DNA of 64,000 nt, taken from NCBI RefSeq assembly GCF_017599305.1, contig NZ_JAGFWR010000010.1:62001-126000 (forward strand), written 5' to 3'. The position numbers and the translations under genes were made by a program. The notes beneath the pieces were generated by a model. It was not told where the DNA came from. It did no database searches and saw nothing but the letters and a program-made list of their open reading frames with translations. Below are positions 5,930-34,198 of the stretch, piece after piece. Every line of letters starts with the position of its first letter. The stretch's first letter is position 1. Source of the stretch: Micromonospora antibiotica (lineage in GTDB: Bacteria > Actinomycetota > Actinomycetes > Mycobacteriales > Micromonosporaceae).

Positions 5930-6835
5930 GTGCTGCGGTTCGGCCTGTTCGGCACCGGTCACTGGGCGGCGCAGACGCACGGCGCGGGGCTGGACGCGCA
6001 TCCGCGCGCCGAGTTGGTGGGCGTCTGGGGGCGCGACCCGGAGAAGGCCGGCGCACTGGCCGCCCGGCACGGTGTACCGGCGTTCGCCGACATCGACGCG
6101 CTCCTCGACGTCTGTGACGCGGTGGCCGTGGCACTGCCCCCGCACGTACAGGCCGGGATCGCCATCCGGGCCGCCACCGCCGGCCGCCACCTGCTGTTGG
6201 ACAAACCCCTCGCGCTGAGTCTCGCCGAGGCCGACCGGCTGGTCGCAGCAGTGCGGGCCGCCGGGGTGGCCTCGGTGGTCTTCTTCACCCAGCGGTTCCA
6301 CCCGAACGTCGACGGCTTCCTCACCGCCACCGCTGCGGCCGGCGGTTGGCAGCACGCCCGCGCCACCCAGTTCGCCTCGATCTACCAGCCCGGCAGCCCG
6401 TACGCCGGTTCCCGCTGGCGGCGGGAGCAGGGGGCGCTGTGGGACATCGGCCCGCACGCCCTCTCGATCGTCTTGCCGGTGCTCGGCCGGGTCACCCGGG
6501 TCGCCGCACTGGACGGTCCCGGTGGGATGGTGCACCTGGTGCTCACCCACGACGGGGGTGCCACCAGCGCGCTGTCGCTGACCCTGGACGCCCCGCCGAC
6601 GGCGCTTGCCCGGGACTTCGTCTTCTACGGCGAGAACGGCGTCGAGACCGTACCGCCGGGCGACGGCAATGCGCTGACCGCCTTCGGTACGGCCGTCGAC
6701 CAACTGCTGGGGCAGATCGACTCGGGTGAGCGGGACCACCGGTGTGACATCCGGTTCGGCCGGGAGGTGGTGGCGGTCCTGGCGGCGGCGGAGACCGCCC
6801 GCGCCGAGGCCCGCACCGTCGACCTCCACCACTGA
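5930..6835 (+). CDS. Gfo/Idh/MocA family NAD(P)-dependent oxidoreductase
   Basis: The 301-residue product carries an N-terminal Rossmann fold (LRFGLFGTGHWA, with GxGxxA) and the family signature DKPLALSLAEADRL, where the Lys is catalytic. A C-terminal alpha/beta domain includes GALWDIGPHALSIVLPVLG, containing the conserved Asp and His. Such enzymes oxidise or reduce sugars, inositols or related polyols; substrate cannot be deduced. I place the start at GTG 5930, which has a GGGGGT element upstream and begins right before the Rossmann strand. A GTG at 5903 in the same frame is an alternative that would add nine residues. Confidence 0.83.
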   Translation: MLRFGLFGTGHWAAQTHGAGLDAHPRAELVGVWGRDPEKAGALAARHGVPAFADIDALLDVCDAVAVALPPHVQAGIAIRAATAGRHLLLDKPLALSLAEADRLVAAVRAAGVASVVFFTQRFHPNVDGFLTATAAAGGWQHARATQFASIYQPGSPYAGSRWRREQGALWDIGPHALSIVLPVLGRVTRVAALDGPGGMVHLVLTHDGGATSALSLTLDAPPTALARDFVFYGENGVETVPPGDGNALTAFGTAVDQLLGQIDSGERDHRCDIRFGREVVAVLAAAETARAEARTVDLHH

Positions 6836-6974
6836 CCGCCCCGATCCGGCCGGCTTGTCGGGGGTCGGCCCGTCGCTGGTAGGGCATGTCACAGGTCGGC
6901 TGACCGTGCGTCGGCTCGGCGTGCGGCGGGCCATCGTGCGTCCGGGCTCGGTCGTCGGGCGGGCTCGGTCGTCG

Positions 6975-7215
6975 GTCGGGCTCGGTGGTCGGTCGGGTGT
7001 GGGGGTGGTGGTCCCGTGGTGCGGTCGGGCTCGGTGGTCGGTCGGGTGTGGGGTGGTGGTCCCGTGGTGCGGTCGGGCTCGGTGGTCGGTCGGGTGTGGG
7101 GGTGGTGGTCCCGTGGTGCGGTGGGCTCGGTGGTCGGTCGGGTGTGGGGGTGGTGGTCCCGTGGTGCGGTGGGCTCGGTGGTCGGTCGGGTGTGGCGGCG
7201 GTGGACCCATGGTGC
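6975..7215. repeat. 49-bp minisatellite, about 5 copies
   Basis: The unit is built from GGGCTCGGTGGTCGGTCGGG, then TGTGGGGGTGG, then TGGTCCCGTGGTGCGGT. About five copies run from near 6975 to 7215, with unit lengths of 47-49 bp. The last copy is diverged (GGCGGTGGACCCATGG). The unit changes length by single bases, so it is not held in a reading frame. Confidence 0.85.
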
Positions 7216-7395
7216 GGCGAGGAGCGTGATGCCTGGGCGGCATAAATATGCCGCTGCGTCATATCGGTGTCTGGGCAATGGTGTCCCTGCCGGGGTCACG
7301 CTGGGTAGCTGGTGGCGCGGCGCGGGACAGCCCGACAGCGGTGCTGGCGGGCCGCGGTCCCGGTGCCGTGCGCCTCGACGTAGGGCATCGTCCTG

Positions 7396-7428
7396 CGGAC
7401 CGGACCGGACCGGACCGGACCGGACCGG
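7396..7428. repeat. GGACC pentanucleotide repeat
   Basis: Six tandem copies of the 5-bp unit GGACC are present. Such tracts are prone to slippage; no coding context is evident. Confidence 0.85.
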
Positions 7429-7606
7429 GGTGGGACCGGATGGGCCGGCCGCCGGAGCACCGTCAGCGCGGCCGATCTTTCCGGCCCGGCGGTGGCGGCG
7501 CGGGTGCTGATCGGGTCAGGTGTCGTGGGCCCGGTGGTGTCGTGGGCCGGTGGTGTCGTGGGTTGGCGGGGTCATGAGCCGGTGGGGCGGTGGCGGACCG
7601 ATCCGG

Positions 7607-7648
7607 AAATGCCTTGCGGAACGTGGGAGGTGCGTTAGCGTGGCGGCC
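7607..7648 (+). promoter_or_regulatory. Putative promoter of the erm leader transcript
   Basis: TTGCGG (7614-7619) and TAGCGT (7636-7641) are separated by 16 bp and make a good sigma-70-type promoter. Transcription would begin at about 7648-7649, at the A of an ATG, so the leader peptide would be leaderless. AAAT at 7607-7610 sits 3 bp before the -35, the position where WhiB7-dependent promoters have an AT-rich patch; WhiB7 control is only a suggestion. Confidence 0.55.
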
Positions 7649-7768
7649 ATGTGCATGCACGCCCTGATCAGCGTGGCCGTCACGTCGGCCGCGCGGGGGC
7701 CCCTCCTGGTGGCCCGCCCGCGAGTCCGGCGTCCGGCCCTGGCCGGCCGGGACGCCCACCGCGCCTGA
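7649..7768 (+). CDS. Candidate macrolide-sensing leader peptide of erm
   Basis: A 39-codon frame begins with ATG at 7649. Its N-terminus is MCMHALISVAVTSAARGPLL, and residues 23-28 read RPRVRR. Known erm leader peptides stall drug-bound ribosomes through short hydrophobic motifs (ErmAL1 has MCTSIAVV) or through R/K-x-R/K motifs (ErmDL has RLR); this frame has features like both. The putative promoter places the transcription start at the ATG. A hairpin (7728-7734 with 7750-7756, plus inner GGCC pairs) lies just after the R-x-R codons. The translation and the arrest are inference. An in-frame GTG at 7640 overlaps the -10 element and is less likely. Confidence 0.55.
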   Translation: MCMHALISVAVTSAARGPLLVARPRVRRPALAGRDAHRA

Positions 7769-7784
7769 CCTGACGAGACCGCCT

Positions 7785-7881
7785 CGGCGTGATCACGCCG
7801 ACCCCGGTCACGCCGATCCCGGTCACGCCGACCCTGATCACGTTCCCCGTGTTCACGCTCTGCCTGATCACGCTGATCTGA
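7785..7881 (+). repeat. 15-bp repeat array with palindrome in erm leader
   Basis: The array begins with the perfect 16-bp palindrome CGGCGTGATCACGCCG (7785-7800). The segment CGGCGTGA at 7785-7792 can also pair with the TCACGCCG copies at 7808-7815 and 7823-7830, so alternative hairpins are possible. It lies between the leader peptide frame and the erm attenuator. Confidence 0.7.
7789..7881 (+). CDS. Possible second short leader ORF made of 15-nt repeats
   Basis: GTG at 7789 opens a 30-codon frame ending at the TGA 7879-7881. Its product is built of V-T-P-x-P units and then turns hydrophobic (LITFPVFTLCLITLI). The DNA is six copies of a 15-nt unit with core TCACGC, starting at 7792, 7807, 7822, 7837, 7852 and 7867, so the period is exactly five codons. 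No Shine-Dalgarno sequence is seen. It may be a second uORF or simply a repeat that folds as RNA. Confidence 0.3.
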   Translation: MITPTPVTPIPVTPTLITFPVFTLCLITLI

Positions 7882-7949
7882 GCAGGGGTCTGGCCTGATC
7901 GTCGCCTGCCCCGTCACCGCGTAGCGTCCCCCTGCCGATCCCCAGGGTC

Positions 7950-8036
7950 GTCCGAGTCCCGATCCACTCGGACAGGCCCCGCGTCGTGCTGCGCCTGTCC
8001 GTACCGTCGCCGGTCGGCGACAGACAGGACGAACCC
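7950..8036 (+). promoter_or_regulatory. Candidate erm attenuator: mutually exclusive hairpins that mask the RBS
   Basis: Four segments can pair in competing ways. GTCCGAGT (7950-7957) pairs with ACTCGGAC (7966-7973). CGGACAGGC (7969-7977) pairs perfectly over 9 bp with GCCTGTCCG (7993-8001). CCTGTC (7994-7999) pairs with GACAGG (8023-8028) around an inner 6-bp stem GTCGCC/GGCGAC (8006-8011 with 8016-8021). The last structure takes up the AGGA at 8026-8029, which is the best ribosome binding site for the GTG at 8037. Formation of 1:2 permits 3:4 (RBS hidden); formation of 2:3 frees the RBS. This is the logic of translational attenuation in erm genes. Confidence 0.6.
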
Positions 8037-8867
8037 GTGGCGCCCCGCCGAGACCGCACCACCGCACGCGACCGGTCCCGTCGCGTACTGTCCCAGAATT
8101 TTCTCGCCGACCCGGCCGCCGTGACGCGGATGGTCCGGGCGGCCGATACCGGCCCGGACGACCTGCTGCTGGAGGTGGGTGCCGGTCGCGGTCAGCTGAC
8201 CCGGCCGCTGGCCCGACGGTGTGGCCGGTTGATCGCCTACGAGGTCGACCCGACCGTCGCCCCCGAGTTGGCGGCGGTGTGTGCGGCGCTGCCACACGTG
8301 GCGCATCGGCAGGCCGACTTCCTGACCGTCGCGCCGCCCGACGAGCCGTTCGCCGTGGTCGGCAACATTCCGTGGTCGTTGACCGCGGCGGTGGTCCGCT
8401 GGTGCCTCGCCGCGCCCCGGTTGCGCGCGGCCACCCTGCTCACCCAGTGGGAGTACGCCCGCAAGCGGACCGGTGACCTCGGCCGGTGGAGTCGGTTGAC
8501 GGTGCTGACCTGGCCGGAGTACGACTGGCGGCTCGCCGGGCGGGTGCCGCGCACCGCGTTTCGTCCGGTGCCCGCCGTCGACGGGGGCATCCTGCGGATC
8601 GACCGTCGGCCGGAGCCGCTGCTGGCCGTGGCCGCGCTGCCCGCGTACCGGCGGATGGTGGAGCTGGGGTTCGGCGGGGCGGGCGGGTCGCTCGCGGCCT
8701 CGCTGCGGGCGGCCCATCCCGGCCGGCGGGTCGACGGTGCGCTGCGGGCGGCGCGGATCGACCCGGCCACCCCGGTCGGGCTGGTCTGGCCGGAACAGTG
8801 GTTGGTGCTGTTCCGGCTGTTGCACGCTGCCACCGCACCGGGCCGACCCGGTGACCGCCGGTGGTGA
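8037..8867 (+). CDS. erm: Erm-type 23S rRNA (adenine-N6)-methyltransferase
   Basis: The 276-residue enzyme methylates adenine in 23S rRNA (A2058 in E. coli numbering), blocking macrolide, lincosamide and streptogramin B binding. Visible motifs are the family opener QNFL (20-23), the SAM-binding loop LEVGAGRGQLT (about 45-55), and the catalytic NIPW (110-113), the Erm form of motif IV. It also has EYARKRTGDLGRWS and FRPVPAVDGGIL, both typical of actinobacterial Erm proteins. The GTG at 8037 has AGGA 7 nt upstream and gives a 19-residue basic N-terminus before QNFL, as in ErmE. A GTG at 7986 would add 17 residues and lies within the attenuator. KsgA/RsmA is unlikely because KsgA has N-L-P-Y and different flanks. 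Whether it mono- or dimethylates cannot be told. Confidence 0.85.
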   Translation: MAPRRDRTTARDRSRRVLSQNFLADPAAVTRMVRAADTGPDDLLLEVGAGRGQLTRPLARRCGRLIAYEVDPTVAPELAAVCAALPHVAHRQADFLTVAPPDEPFAVVGNIPWSLTAAVVRWCLAAPRLRAATLLTQWEYARKRTGDLGRWSRLTVLTWPEYDWRLAGRVPRTAFRPVPAVDGGILRIDRRPEPLLAVAALPAYRRMVELGFGGAGGSLAASLRAAHPGRRVDGALRAARIDPATPVGLVWPEQWLVLFRLLHAATAPGRPGDRRW

Positions 8868-8908
8868 GCGGGGCCGCCCGCTCTGGGCCCAGGTATCCGG
8901 GTGGGGGC

Positions 8909-9100
8909 TCAGGCGAGGGTGGTGAGGGCCTCGTTCAGGTCGGCCGGGTCCTCGAACTGCTCGGCGGGCAGCGCCCGCAGCAGTTGGAGCAGCTCGGTGC
9001 TCGCCCCGTTCTCCTGACCCCAGCGGACCAGGTCCTCGCGGGAGACCGGGTAGTCGAGCCCGGCCAGGTACTCCTGCAACTGCAACCCGGTGACGCTCAT
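8909..9100 (-). CDS. DUF2795 family small protein
   Basis: The 63-residue product (start MSVTGLQLQEYLAGLDYPVS, then REDLVRWGQENGAS) matches the DUF2795 family. These are short helical proteins with the recurrent Y-P pair followed by an acidic/aliphatic helix, ELLQLLRALPAEQFEDPADL. Function is unknown. The ATG at 9100 is the natural start. It is divergently oriented from the erythromycin-esterase homologue, with 93 bp between starts. Confidence 0.78.
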   Translation of the reverse strand: MSVTGLQLQEYLAGLDYPVSREDLVRWGQENGASTELLQLLRALPAEQFEDPADLNEALTTLA

Positions 9101-9193
9101 GCCGCCGGCTACCCGTTCCGCCCGCCGCCACACCGGCCGGTCCCGCCACACCATCGGCGGTTTGTCCGCCGACCCTGCCGGGTAGCCCCGCCC

Positions 9194-10450
9194 ATGCTGG
9201 TACAGCGGCTCGGTACGCCTAGCGACTTCGACCCCCTGCTGGAGCGGGTCCGGGACGCCCGCGTGGTCATGATCGGTGAGGCGACGCACGGCAGTTACGA
9301 CTACTACCGGTTGCGCGAGCAGCTCACCCGGCGGCTCATCGCCGAGCAGGGGTTCGACTTCGTGGCGGTGGAGGGGGACTGGCCGGACTGCGACCGGGTG
9401 CACCGGTCGGTGGTCGGCGCACCGGGTGGCGCCCAGGACCCCCGGACCGCGCTGGGACGGTTCACCCGCTGGCCGACGTGGATGTGGGCGAACGCCGAGG
9501 TGGACCGGTTCTGCCGGTGGCTGCGGGCGTGGAACCTGGAGCGTCCGGAGCGGGAACGGTCCGGCTTCCACGGGCTGGACGTCTACAGCCTCTGGGAGTC
9601 CATGCAGGCGATCTTCGACTATCTCGGTGAGGAGGACCCGAAGTCGATGGAGGCCGCCCAGGACGCGTACCGGTGCTTCGAGCCGTTCGGCCGGCGGGTC
9701 GAGGAGTACGGCGCGGCCAGCCGGTTCGTCTCGGCGCGCTGCGAGGAGGAGGTGATCCGGCTGTTGGCGCGTACCCGGGCACATGTCGCCTCGGACGGCC
9801 CGGACGCCTTCGCTGCCTGGCAGAACGCGGAGGTGGTGGCGGGGGCGGAGCGGTACTACCGGGCGATGGTGCACGGTGGGCCGGATTCCTGGAACGTGCG
9901 CGACACCCACATGGCGGACACCCTGGAGAGGTTGCTGACCCGCTACGGACCCGGATCACGCGGCATCGTGTGGGCGCACAACACCCACATCGGAGACGCC
10001 CGCGCCACCGACATGGCCGGCGACGGGATGGTCAACATCGGGCAGTTGGCCCGGGAACGGCTGGGCCGCGACGCGGTGGCGCTGATCGGCCTCGGTGGTT
10101 ACCAGGGCACTGTGGTGGCCGCCCCGCACTGGGGGTCACCGGCCGAGGTGATGACGGTGCCGCCGGCCCGGGAGGGTTCGGTGGAGTCGCGGCTGCACGA
10201 GCTGCTGCCGGAGCGGGCGGTGCTCGTCTTCGGTGGCCCCGACCAGCCCGACTGGGTCACCGGCACCGCCGACCACCGGGCCATCGGCGTGGTCTACGAC
10301 CCGACCTTCGAGCGCTGGGGCAACTACGTCCCGAGTCGGCTGGCCGACCGCTACGACGCCTTCATCTGGTGCGACACCTCCACCGCCCTGCACCCGCTAC
10401 CCACCCCCAGCACCGTAGCCGAACTGGAGACCTACCCCACCGGCCTCTGA
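9194..10450 (+). CDS. Erythromycin esterase family protein
   Basis: The 418-residue protein belongs to the erythromycin esterase superfamily, some members of which open the lactone ring of 14-membered macrolides by hydrolysis. The family's active-site residues are all visible: E29 and H32 in GEATHG, E60 in VEGDWPD, and H262 in WAHNTHIGDA. No signal peptide is present, so it acts in the cytoplasm. Many actinobacterial members have unknown substrates, and close homologues need not inactivate erythromycin. Its position 330 bp after an erm gene makes a macrolide role more plausible here. The ATG at 9194 is used; the frame is open further upstream but that part overlaps the DUF2795 gene on the other strand. 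Confidence 0.8.
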   Translation: MLVQRLGTPSDFDPLLERVRDARVVMIGEATHGSYDYYRLREQLTRRLIAEQGFDFVAVEGDWPDCDRVHRSVVGAPGGAQDPRTALGRFTRWPTWMWANAEVDRFCRWLRAWNLERPERERSGFHGLDVYSLWESMQAIFDYLGEEDPKSMEAAQDAYRCFEPFGRRVEEYGAASRFVSARCEEEVIRLLARTRAHVASDGPDAFAAWQNAEVVAGAERYYRAMVHGGPDSWNVRDTHMADTLERLLTRYGPGSRGIVWAHNTHIGDARATDMAGDGMVNIGQLARERLGRDAVALIGLGGYQGTVVAAPHWGSPAEVMTVPPAREGSVESRLHELLPERAVLVFGGPDQPDWVTGTADHRAIGVVYDPTFERWGNYVPSRLADRYDAFIWCDTSTALHPLPTPSTVAELETYPTGL

Positions 10451-33744: not shown

Positions 33745-34198
33745 ACCCCCGGAGTCCTGTAGGTGGGAATCCCCGTCGGTGGACTTTTCTTTCGGCAGAC
33801 CTGGCAGCTCTTGAAAGTTGTGTGCGCCGCCGGGTTGACTGGAGGTGCGGTTCCCGGCCGATCCGGCCGGGCCGGCCACCGGAGGGCGGCGCAGACCTGG
33901 GGAGGCGTACGCCGCCCGGCGTCCGGCCGGGCGGGCTCCTGAACCTGGGGGAGGAGCCCGCCCGGCCGGTCGGTGCGCCGGGGCAGGAATGGTGGGCGCG
34001 AGCAGCGGGAATGCCGGGTGGTGGGCCGGCGTTACGACTGCCGGACCGATCGTGTGGCCCGCCCGTCGGGTCGGCTCACGCCCATGGCACACTGGTCAAT
34101 CGGCCACCGGTTCCGGTTCACGCCCGAGTCCGTCGCGCACCAGGCGACGGGGGATCAGCGGCGACCCGGCGACCACCTGACGAAAGGACCGAGGCGAC
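33745..34198. other. Intergenic region before rpmE
   Basis: No convincing gene is seen in these 450 bases. They hold a relatively A+T-rich segment (33780-33840: GGACTTTTCTTTCGG, CTCTTGAAAGTTGTGTG) that could contain the rpmE promoter, followed by G/C-rich sequence with no clear ORF. No Zur-box-like palindrome was recognised. Confidence 0.45.

Follow-up and report, generated by a model that had tools for sequence, protein, structure and literature searches.

An Arg-x-Arg leader upstream of erm in Micromonospora antibiotica, probably a variant of erm attenuation with a general actinobacterial design

The erm gene of Micromonospora antibiotica, as it lies in a stretch of 64,000 nucleotides (nt) of contig NZ_JAGFWR010000010.1 (positions 62,001 to 126,000, hereafter the window), is preceded by a leader that encodes a short peptide with an Arg-x-Arg motif and that recurs upstream of erm genes in this genus and in other actinobacterial clades. 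The control region of this chromosomal gene is best explained as one with two predicted antibiotic-sensing layers, i.e., WhiB7 and ribosome stalling. Arg-x-Arg leaders, erm attenuation, and WhiB7 control are each already known, and what we describe is probably a variant of erm attenuation that forms a general actinobacterial design. As we read the region, macrolide-induced stalling on the leader lets a long-range RNA helix form at the edge of the ribosome, which then favors erm translation, and we lean slightly towards this reading being right. Our judgment is evenly divided on the broader proposal that much of the actinobacteria shares one erm design composed of a WhiB7-type promoter, a leaderless Arg-x-Arg peptide, and a helix at the leading edge of the stalled ribosome. 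In such a design, stalling would expose instead of mask the regulatory strand, and the helix sequence could vary freely as long as its spacing from the arrest codon stayed constant, with the ribosome serving as the ruler. Soil bacteria are often regarded as a reservoir of such resistance genes. If our reading is true, two antibiotic-sensing layers converge on a single one of them, and the leader offers a compact system for studying how a stalled ribosome sets RNA folding.

The product of the window's gene scores 351.2 bits against the curated Erm model NF000337 (cut-off 320) and 250.5 bits against NF000499 (cut-off 212) and is also matched by PF00398. This gene is common within Micromonospora: In 87 of the 151 genomes of this genus, a match reaches E 1e-70 or better, with identities of at least 71% in 84 of them and of 48-59% in three. 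From the contigs of named genomes (80 loci kept from 93 relatives) and from further genomes of the genus, we composed a working set of 116 distinct regions upstream of erm from which near-duplicates had been removed. Three loci without an anchor (L157, L164, and L165) and one with a weak anchor (L171) were left out beforehand.

A leader open reading frame (ORF) was found at 110 of the 116 loci, i.e., at 106 by a scored search and at four more (L091, L093, L096, and L097) through their -10 element and Arg-Leu-Arg. A strict automatic rule, which asks for an ATG-initiated ORF of 15-60 codons with R-x-R that begins 5-9 nt after TANNNT, was satisfied by 105 loci compared with 1, 0, 1, 1, and 1 of the 116 after five rounds of dinucleotide shuffling; when an AT box at the correct distance was also demanded, 99 loci stood against none in all five shuffles. 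Among the 106 aligned leaders, the ATG follows the -10 element at 7 nt in 77 and at 6 nt in 29 cases, in a scan that allowed 5-9 nt. Since this distance is only 7 nt in the window, the leader is predicted to be leaderless, and its messenger RNA (mRNA) should start at or very near the leader ATG. This agrees with the first-pass annotation of the window, made from its sequence alone, which had placed the transcription start at the ATG and had proposed an erm leader of about 390 nt with an arrest-type R-x-R peptide. The distance from the start of the ORF to erm is 388 nt, the motif is conserved across clades, and both leader conservation and covariation, whose lack would have spoken against the idea, are present upstream of related erm genes. 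The leader is genuine, and the finding is stronger and wider than a single sequence could show. At six loci no leader ORF was found (L034, L036, L103, L166, L167, and L170), with a run of N in the stretch at L034 and the locus ending 341 nt upstream at L036; L049, one of the 110 with a leader, starts 7 nt before the ATG, so that its promoter and -10 element lie outside the locus. Separately, L167 and L103 keep the conserved block before erm and might represent cases of leader loss or constitutive expression.

The 39-codon product of the window, MCMHALISVAVTSAARGPLLVARPRVRRPALAGRDAHRA, has little in common with the peptides of other clades except Arg-x-Arg, which occurs as RPRVRR in Micromonospora, RLRxRRR in Dactylosporangium, RLRS or RPRS in several Nocardiopsis, and RLRA in Glycomyces. 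R-x-R is present in 83 of the 86 Micromonospora leaders. In the 84 of them that were aligned, Arg23 is found in all 84, Arg28 is invariant, and Arg25 occurs in 81 and is encoded by four synonymous codons, and the ratio of nonsynonymous to synonymous change (pN/pS) is 0.45 in codons 21-28 compared with 0.83 in codons 2-20. Arg-x-Arg is conserved at the amino-acid level, and by this comparison the conserved peptide element is an Arg-x-Arg of the predicted macrolide-arrest type, not the ISVAV stretch. The latter had been likened to the IAVV arrest motif and had to be dropped as a candidate, with peptide positions 8-11 being variable. An amino-acid-responsive attenuator was likewise ruled out by eye, given that the printed leaders show no conserved run of a single residue. 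Neither an Rfam scan of the erm leader nor a Pfam search with the leader peptide gave a match.

Arrest at such a motif has precedents. In the ErmD leader peptide (ErmDL), drug-bound ribosomes stall at R-x-R with x occupying the P site, the motif being critical in the presence of telithromycin and mattering less with erythromycin (PMC8298421). Our leader resembles ErmDL in carrying Arg-x-Arg at the predicted arrest site upstream of erm with x expected in the P site, though it differs in that the motif occupies codons 23-25 instead of 6-8, in its leaderless ORF, and in its WhiB7-type promoter. In the short leader of Bacillus subtilis tlrB (yxjB), stalling occurs at R-Y-R and turns on the resistance methyltransferase gene, and toeprints put the middle residue in the P site (PMC6851288). 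This system likewise has an R-x-R-type motif before a resistance methyltransferase gene, with stalling being predicted in our case, whereas TlrB is an RlmAII-type enzyme and the enzyme of the window is an Erm. In B. subtilis, the ribosome stalled on the leader directly prevents both a terminator and a Shine-Dalgarno hairpin from forming, while here it would stand far upstream and would act via a long-range helix.

This helix emerged from the codons that follow the motif. In codons 29-33 of the Micromonospora leaders, pS falls to 0.035 compared with 0.288 in codons 2-20 and 0.246 in codons 21-28. Codons 29-32 hold the segment GGCCCTGG (7735-7742), which is complementary with one G-U pair to CCAGGGTC (7942-7949). 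The two arms change jointly: Among the 86 Micromonospora loci, a leader CTG goes with a CAGGG partner in 74 of 75 (the exception being L159), and a leader CCG (10 loci) or TCG (one locus) goes with CGAGGG or CGTGGG in 11 of 11. Equivalent pairs made of other sequence are present in Actinoplanes (GGCCCCGGCGA:TCGCCGGGGCC, L080), Nocardiopsis (GCCTGGACCGGT:GCCGGTCCAGGC, L099), and Nocardia (GCCCGGATCCGG:CCGGGTCCGGGC, L098). The predicted pairing is well supported by these joint changes and by its recurrence from unrelated sequence in other clades. We then took the best contiguous helix between P+11 to P+34 (P denoting the base at which the x codon starts) and the 190 nt immediately ahead of erm in 28 representatives hand-picked from 120. 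The Fisher p was 2.8e-12 with 11 of 28 below 0.05, compared with 0.46 (2/28) and 0.66 (1/28) for two control windows further upstream; all p values in this study are approximate because the loci are related, which is a first point against our reading. This best helix begins between P+12 and P+18 in 24 of the 28, at P+11 in L088, and between P+22 and P+25 in L147, L079, and L086. Toeprints sit 15-16 nt from the P-site base (PMC6851288), and the edge segment would therefore begin about where the stalled ribosome ends.

Table 1. Elements of the erm control region in the window.
Feature	Position	Strand	Basis
AT box (AAAT), 3 nt upstream of -35, WhiB7-type promoter element	7607-7610	+	A/T profile; WhiB7 motif in PMC10727445
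Promoter: -35 TTGCGG 7614-7619, 16-nt spacer, -10 TAGCGT 7636-7641	7614-7641	+	Sequence
Predicted leaderless leader-peptide ORF, 39 codons, ATG 7649, stop 7766-7768	7649-7768	+	Conservation across erm loci
Arg23-Pro24-Arg25 codons, predicted arrest motif; Pro24 codon (7718-7720) predicted in P site	7715-7723	+	Conservation; R-x-R literature
Edge segment GGCCCTGG, 5' arm of predicted long-range helix; 17 nt from first base of P-site codon	7735-7742	+	Low pS; helix test
15-bp tandem repeats in spacer between leader and conserved block (arrays 7793-7842 and 7832-7874)	7793-7874	+	
Partner segment CCAGGGTC, 3' arm of predicted long-range helix	7942-7949	+	Joint changes with leader
Local hairpin 7950-7957:7966-7973 (8 bp), extended by 7945-7949:7975-7979	7950-7973	+	Sequence; folds
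Hairpin 7969-7977:7993-8001 (9 bp, CGGACAGGC:GCCTGTCCG), alternative to the 7950-7973 hairpin	7969-8001	+	Two-sided changes
Hairpin GTCGCC:GGCGAC, directly 5' of Shine-Dalgarno	8006-8021	+	Two-sided changes
Shine-Dalgarno region, AGGA 8026-8029; 8023-8028 can pair with 7994-7999 (6 bp)	8023-8029	+	Sequence
erm, 23S rRNA A2058 methyltransferase gene, GTG start	8037-8867	+	Curated Erm models; PF00398

The promoter hexamers, their spacing, and the start and length of the ORF are exactly as first annotated (Table 1). In its upstream part, the promoter reads AAAT-GCC-TTGCGG, and we class it as WhiB7-type by the AT-rich element 3 bp upstream of the -35. Across the 106 leaders aligned on the -10, the positions -31 to -28 (numbered relative to the start of the -10) form an island with 75, 97, 99, and 81% A/T over a background of 27%. 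A generic sigma-70 scan requiring at least 9 of 12 consensus matches, a consensus that the hexamers fit poorly, gave no promoter-like site in 6800-9300. In Mycobacterium abscessus, the WhiB7 binding site is AT-rich and lies 3 bp upstream of the -35, which is separated from the -10 by 13-14 or 23-24 nt, and erm41 is a target in chromatin immunoprecipitation (ChIP; PMC10727445); the distance in the window is 22 nt, start to start. The source genome has six WhiB matches, one of which (L207) carries EPW beside GVWGG together with an RGRP AT-hook, and by these features given for WhiB7 it is assigned as the WhiB7 of this genome. Its own leader (L207, 850-1450) has, by eye, an AT-rich promoter-like stretch and a stem with TTTTTT behind it, in line with descriptions of whiB7 attenuators.

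In principle, WhiB7 could govern erm alone, with the leader ORF being a small protein or a relic without a role in switching. This would fit the AT box at 99 of 116 loci as well as the mycobacterial precedents, i.e., erm41 as a ChIP target (PMC10727445) and erm(37), which is treated as an exception to control by upstream open reading frames (uORFs) and described as regulated via WhiB7 (PMC4128351). However, it leaves unexplained the conserved Arg-x-Arg, the loss of synonymous change in the edge segment, the joint changes of the two arms, and the near-constant distance from motif to edge segment across several clades, and we consider it very improbable. Our locus shares the WhiB7-type promoter with erm41 and erm37, though no arrest leader is described for those genes in the parts of these two accounts that we compared, a comparison by description only (PMC10727445, PMC4128351).

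Between the leader and the conserved block before erm lies a spacer of tandem repeats (Table 1) whose length differs between species, and the leader-to-erm distance varies among loci. For the region in front of erm, a chain of 1:2, 2:3, and 3:4 stems had been proposed as the switch (7950:7966, 7969:7993, and 7994:8023 in Table 1). All three stems exist at exactly the annotated coordinates, and the idea of alternative pairings held up with two-sided changes at 10 of 89 loci in the 9-bp stem, the only one of the three to show them. The hairpin next to it, 8006-8021, also has two-sided changes, at 6 of 89 loci. As a complete account, the chain fell short: The 7950:7966 stem has no two-sided changes in the 89 loci, the 7994:8023 stem depends on CCTGTC in segment 4, in whose place a minority of loci have another sequence (e.g., GCGGTC in 9/89), and the long-range helix had been missed. 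In predicted folds, the Shine-Dalgarno sequence pairs either with segment 4 or with the partner region (L014 and L037), the equivalent of the latter in the window being 7945-7953 with 8027-8036. ErmC-type masking by only these three local stems has in its favor that all of them are present in the window, one with two-sided changes. Yet the stems begin 182 nt after the leader stop and would thus be out of reach of a ribosome translating the leader, and with the shortcomings of the first and third stem and the edge helix left unexplained we regard such masking as the least credible explanation.

A stronger contender, though in our view still unlikely, is transcription attenuation, in which a hairpin of the block (7969-8001, with 8006-8021) would stop RNA polymerase upon read-through of the leader and stalling would favor an antiterminator as in tlrB and whiB7 leaders. 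The two-sided changes of the 7969-8001 hairpin would suit this, as does R-Y-R stalling at tlrB, which acts on both a terminator and a Shine-Dalgarno hairpin (PMC6851288). However, we found no terminator-like site in 6800-9300 and, by eye, no U-tract in the printed leader sequences, while the whiB7 leader of the same genome does have its stem and TTTTTT. The absent U-tract is not decisive because some leaderless amino-acid leader peptides of Streptomyces lividans come without a typical terminator (PMC8079986).

In the mechanism that we favor instead, the WhiB7-type promoter would yield an mRNA whose 5' end coincides with the leader ATG or lies close to it, as suggested by sequence and conservation. 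Without drug, a translating ribosome would pass Arg-Pro-Arg and occupy codons 29-33 and with them the edge segment, and the downstream RNA would fold with the erm Shine-Dalgarno sequence paired. A macrolide-bound ribosome would arrest with Pro24 in the P site and Arg25 in the A site, by analogy to R-x-R arrest in the ErmD and TlrB leaders, and its leading edge would end about where GGCCCTGG starts. The segment would then be exposed to pair with CCAGGGTC, and the resulting helix would pull the partner off its local hairpin and off the Shine-Dalgarno pairing 7945-7953:8027-8036. Release of the Shine-Dalgarno sequence would favor erm translation. We infer this direction of the switch, to which equilibrium folding points weakly. 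For the window RNA, 7.93 of the 8 edge-helix pairs are predicted to form with a ribosome at R-x-R, 0.00 with the ribosome on the segment, and 0.45 with it at the stop. When the partner is masked, opening the Shine-Dalgarno sequence costs 1.39 kcal/mol less over 84 Micromonospora loci (control masks 0.31) and 1.06 and 0.90 less in two mixed groups (n=10 and n=9; controls 0.34 and 0.28). Moving the ribosome from the edge segment to R-x-R changes this cost by a mean of -0.85, with values lower by more than 0.5 at 60 and higher at 9 of 110 loci.

Several results, besides the relatedness of the loci, weigh against this mechanism. Masking the partner has nearly no effect in Dactylosporangium/Actinoplanes (-0.15, n=10) and barely raises the mean unpaired probability of the Shine-Dalgarno sequence, from 0.24 to 0.26 over 82 loci, with an increase above 0.1 in 7 of 82; in the window RNA, this sequence is mostly paired in every computed state. 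Compared with empty mRNA, a ribosome at R-x-R brings no gain in opening, changing its cost by -0.15 (40 lower and 32 higher of 110), or by +0.12 with a longer footprint (18 lower and 24 higher of 92). The Micromonospora leader extends several codons beyond the edge segment, and a terminating ribosome would therefore leave this segment uncovered. In an energy-based duplex test, most single loci did not reach significance, with all 60 shuffles being beaten at 2 of 86 Micromonospora loci and at 0/10, 0/8, 2/6, and 3/10 loci elsewhere. This test covered whole downstream regions, and GC-rich repeats are perhaps behind its outcome; the contiguous-helix statistic was chosen after this result in its place and then also run on the Erm(38)-like lineage. 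Finally, 3 of the 86 Micromonospora leaders (L035, L055, and L059) have Trp25 and no R/K-x-R/K. These three retain the edge segment and could serve as natural tests of the arrest motif.

The design may extend to further lineages of erm. A scan of 396 genomes from the phylum yielded 14 Erm proteins above the NF000499 cut-off, and 11 of them, the window's own included, have a leaderless R/K-x-R/K ORF within 700 nt under a looser rule run without a shuffle control, with none shown for L172, L178, and L184. Such an ORF occurs at one of the best 16 matches below the cut-off, 15 of which come with upstream sequence. Within the same order, an Erm(38)-like lineage has matches in 35 of 298 genomes at E 1e-60, none of them above the cut-off of that model. 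Of 25 loci fetched, 24 were anchored (L226 was not), and 23 of these carry a leaderless ORF that is 10-20 codons long and whose R-x-R lies three or four codons ahead of the stop, while L214 has no qualifying ORF. An AT box is present at 19 of the 23 (background 3%; L222 and L227-L229 are without), and the best helix, in which a GCGGCGG-type sequence beside the stop codon joins mostly CCGCCGC-like downstream sequence, lies around P+12 to P+16 in 21 of 23. The helix test gave a Fisher p of 1.6e-5 with 5 of 23 below 0.05, compared with 0.44 and 0.99 for the controls. In many of the loci L208-L232, the Arg codons (CGCCGC) could themselves pair with the GCGGCGG-type stop-codon sequence and may be an off-state partner.

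In trp-type attenuators, a segment immediately 3' of the stall codons is left free by a stalled ribosome and occupied by one that reads through. The erm leader would follow the same logic of exposure, though its signal would be the macrolide-bound ribosome and no terminator was found in 6800-9300. It further resembles the uORF of whiB7/wblC leaders, an actinobacterial uORF upstream of a resistance gene that is antibiotic-responsive there (PMC10727445). In contrast, whiB7 leaders use an intrinsic terminator, and the whiB7 uORFs of M. marinum and M. bovis have a Shine-Dalgarno sequence (PMC4128351); neither was found for the erm leader. A literature search, with most subscription papers outside its reach, turned up neither this combination nor the edge helix; older work on the Streptomyces tlrA/ermSF/ermSV and Corynebacterium ermX leaders may cover part of it. 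A 2024 survey of ca. 250 bp upstream of erm genes reported that uORFs and palindromes are not universally conserved (PMC11264731). If our reading is true, a common actinobacterial design may have been missed there, given that many leaders are located beyond this distance and that their pairing spans a long range.

Beyond the leader itself, tandem repeats lie upstream of the promoter at 6973-7217 (five copies of a 48-bp unit) and 7396-7428 (6.6 copies of CGGAC). Elsewhere in the window, positions 34107-34174 match the L31-Actinobacteria ribosomal protein leader (Rfam RF03158).

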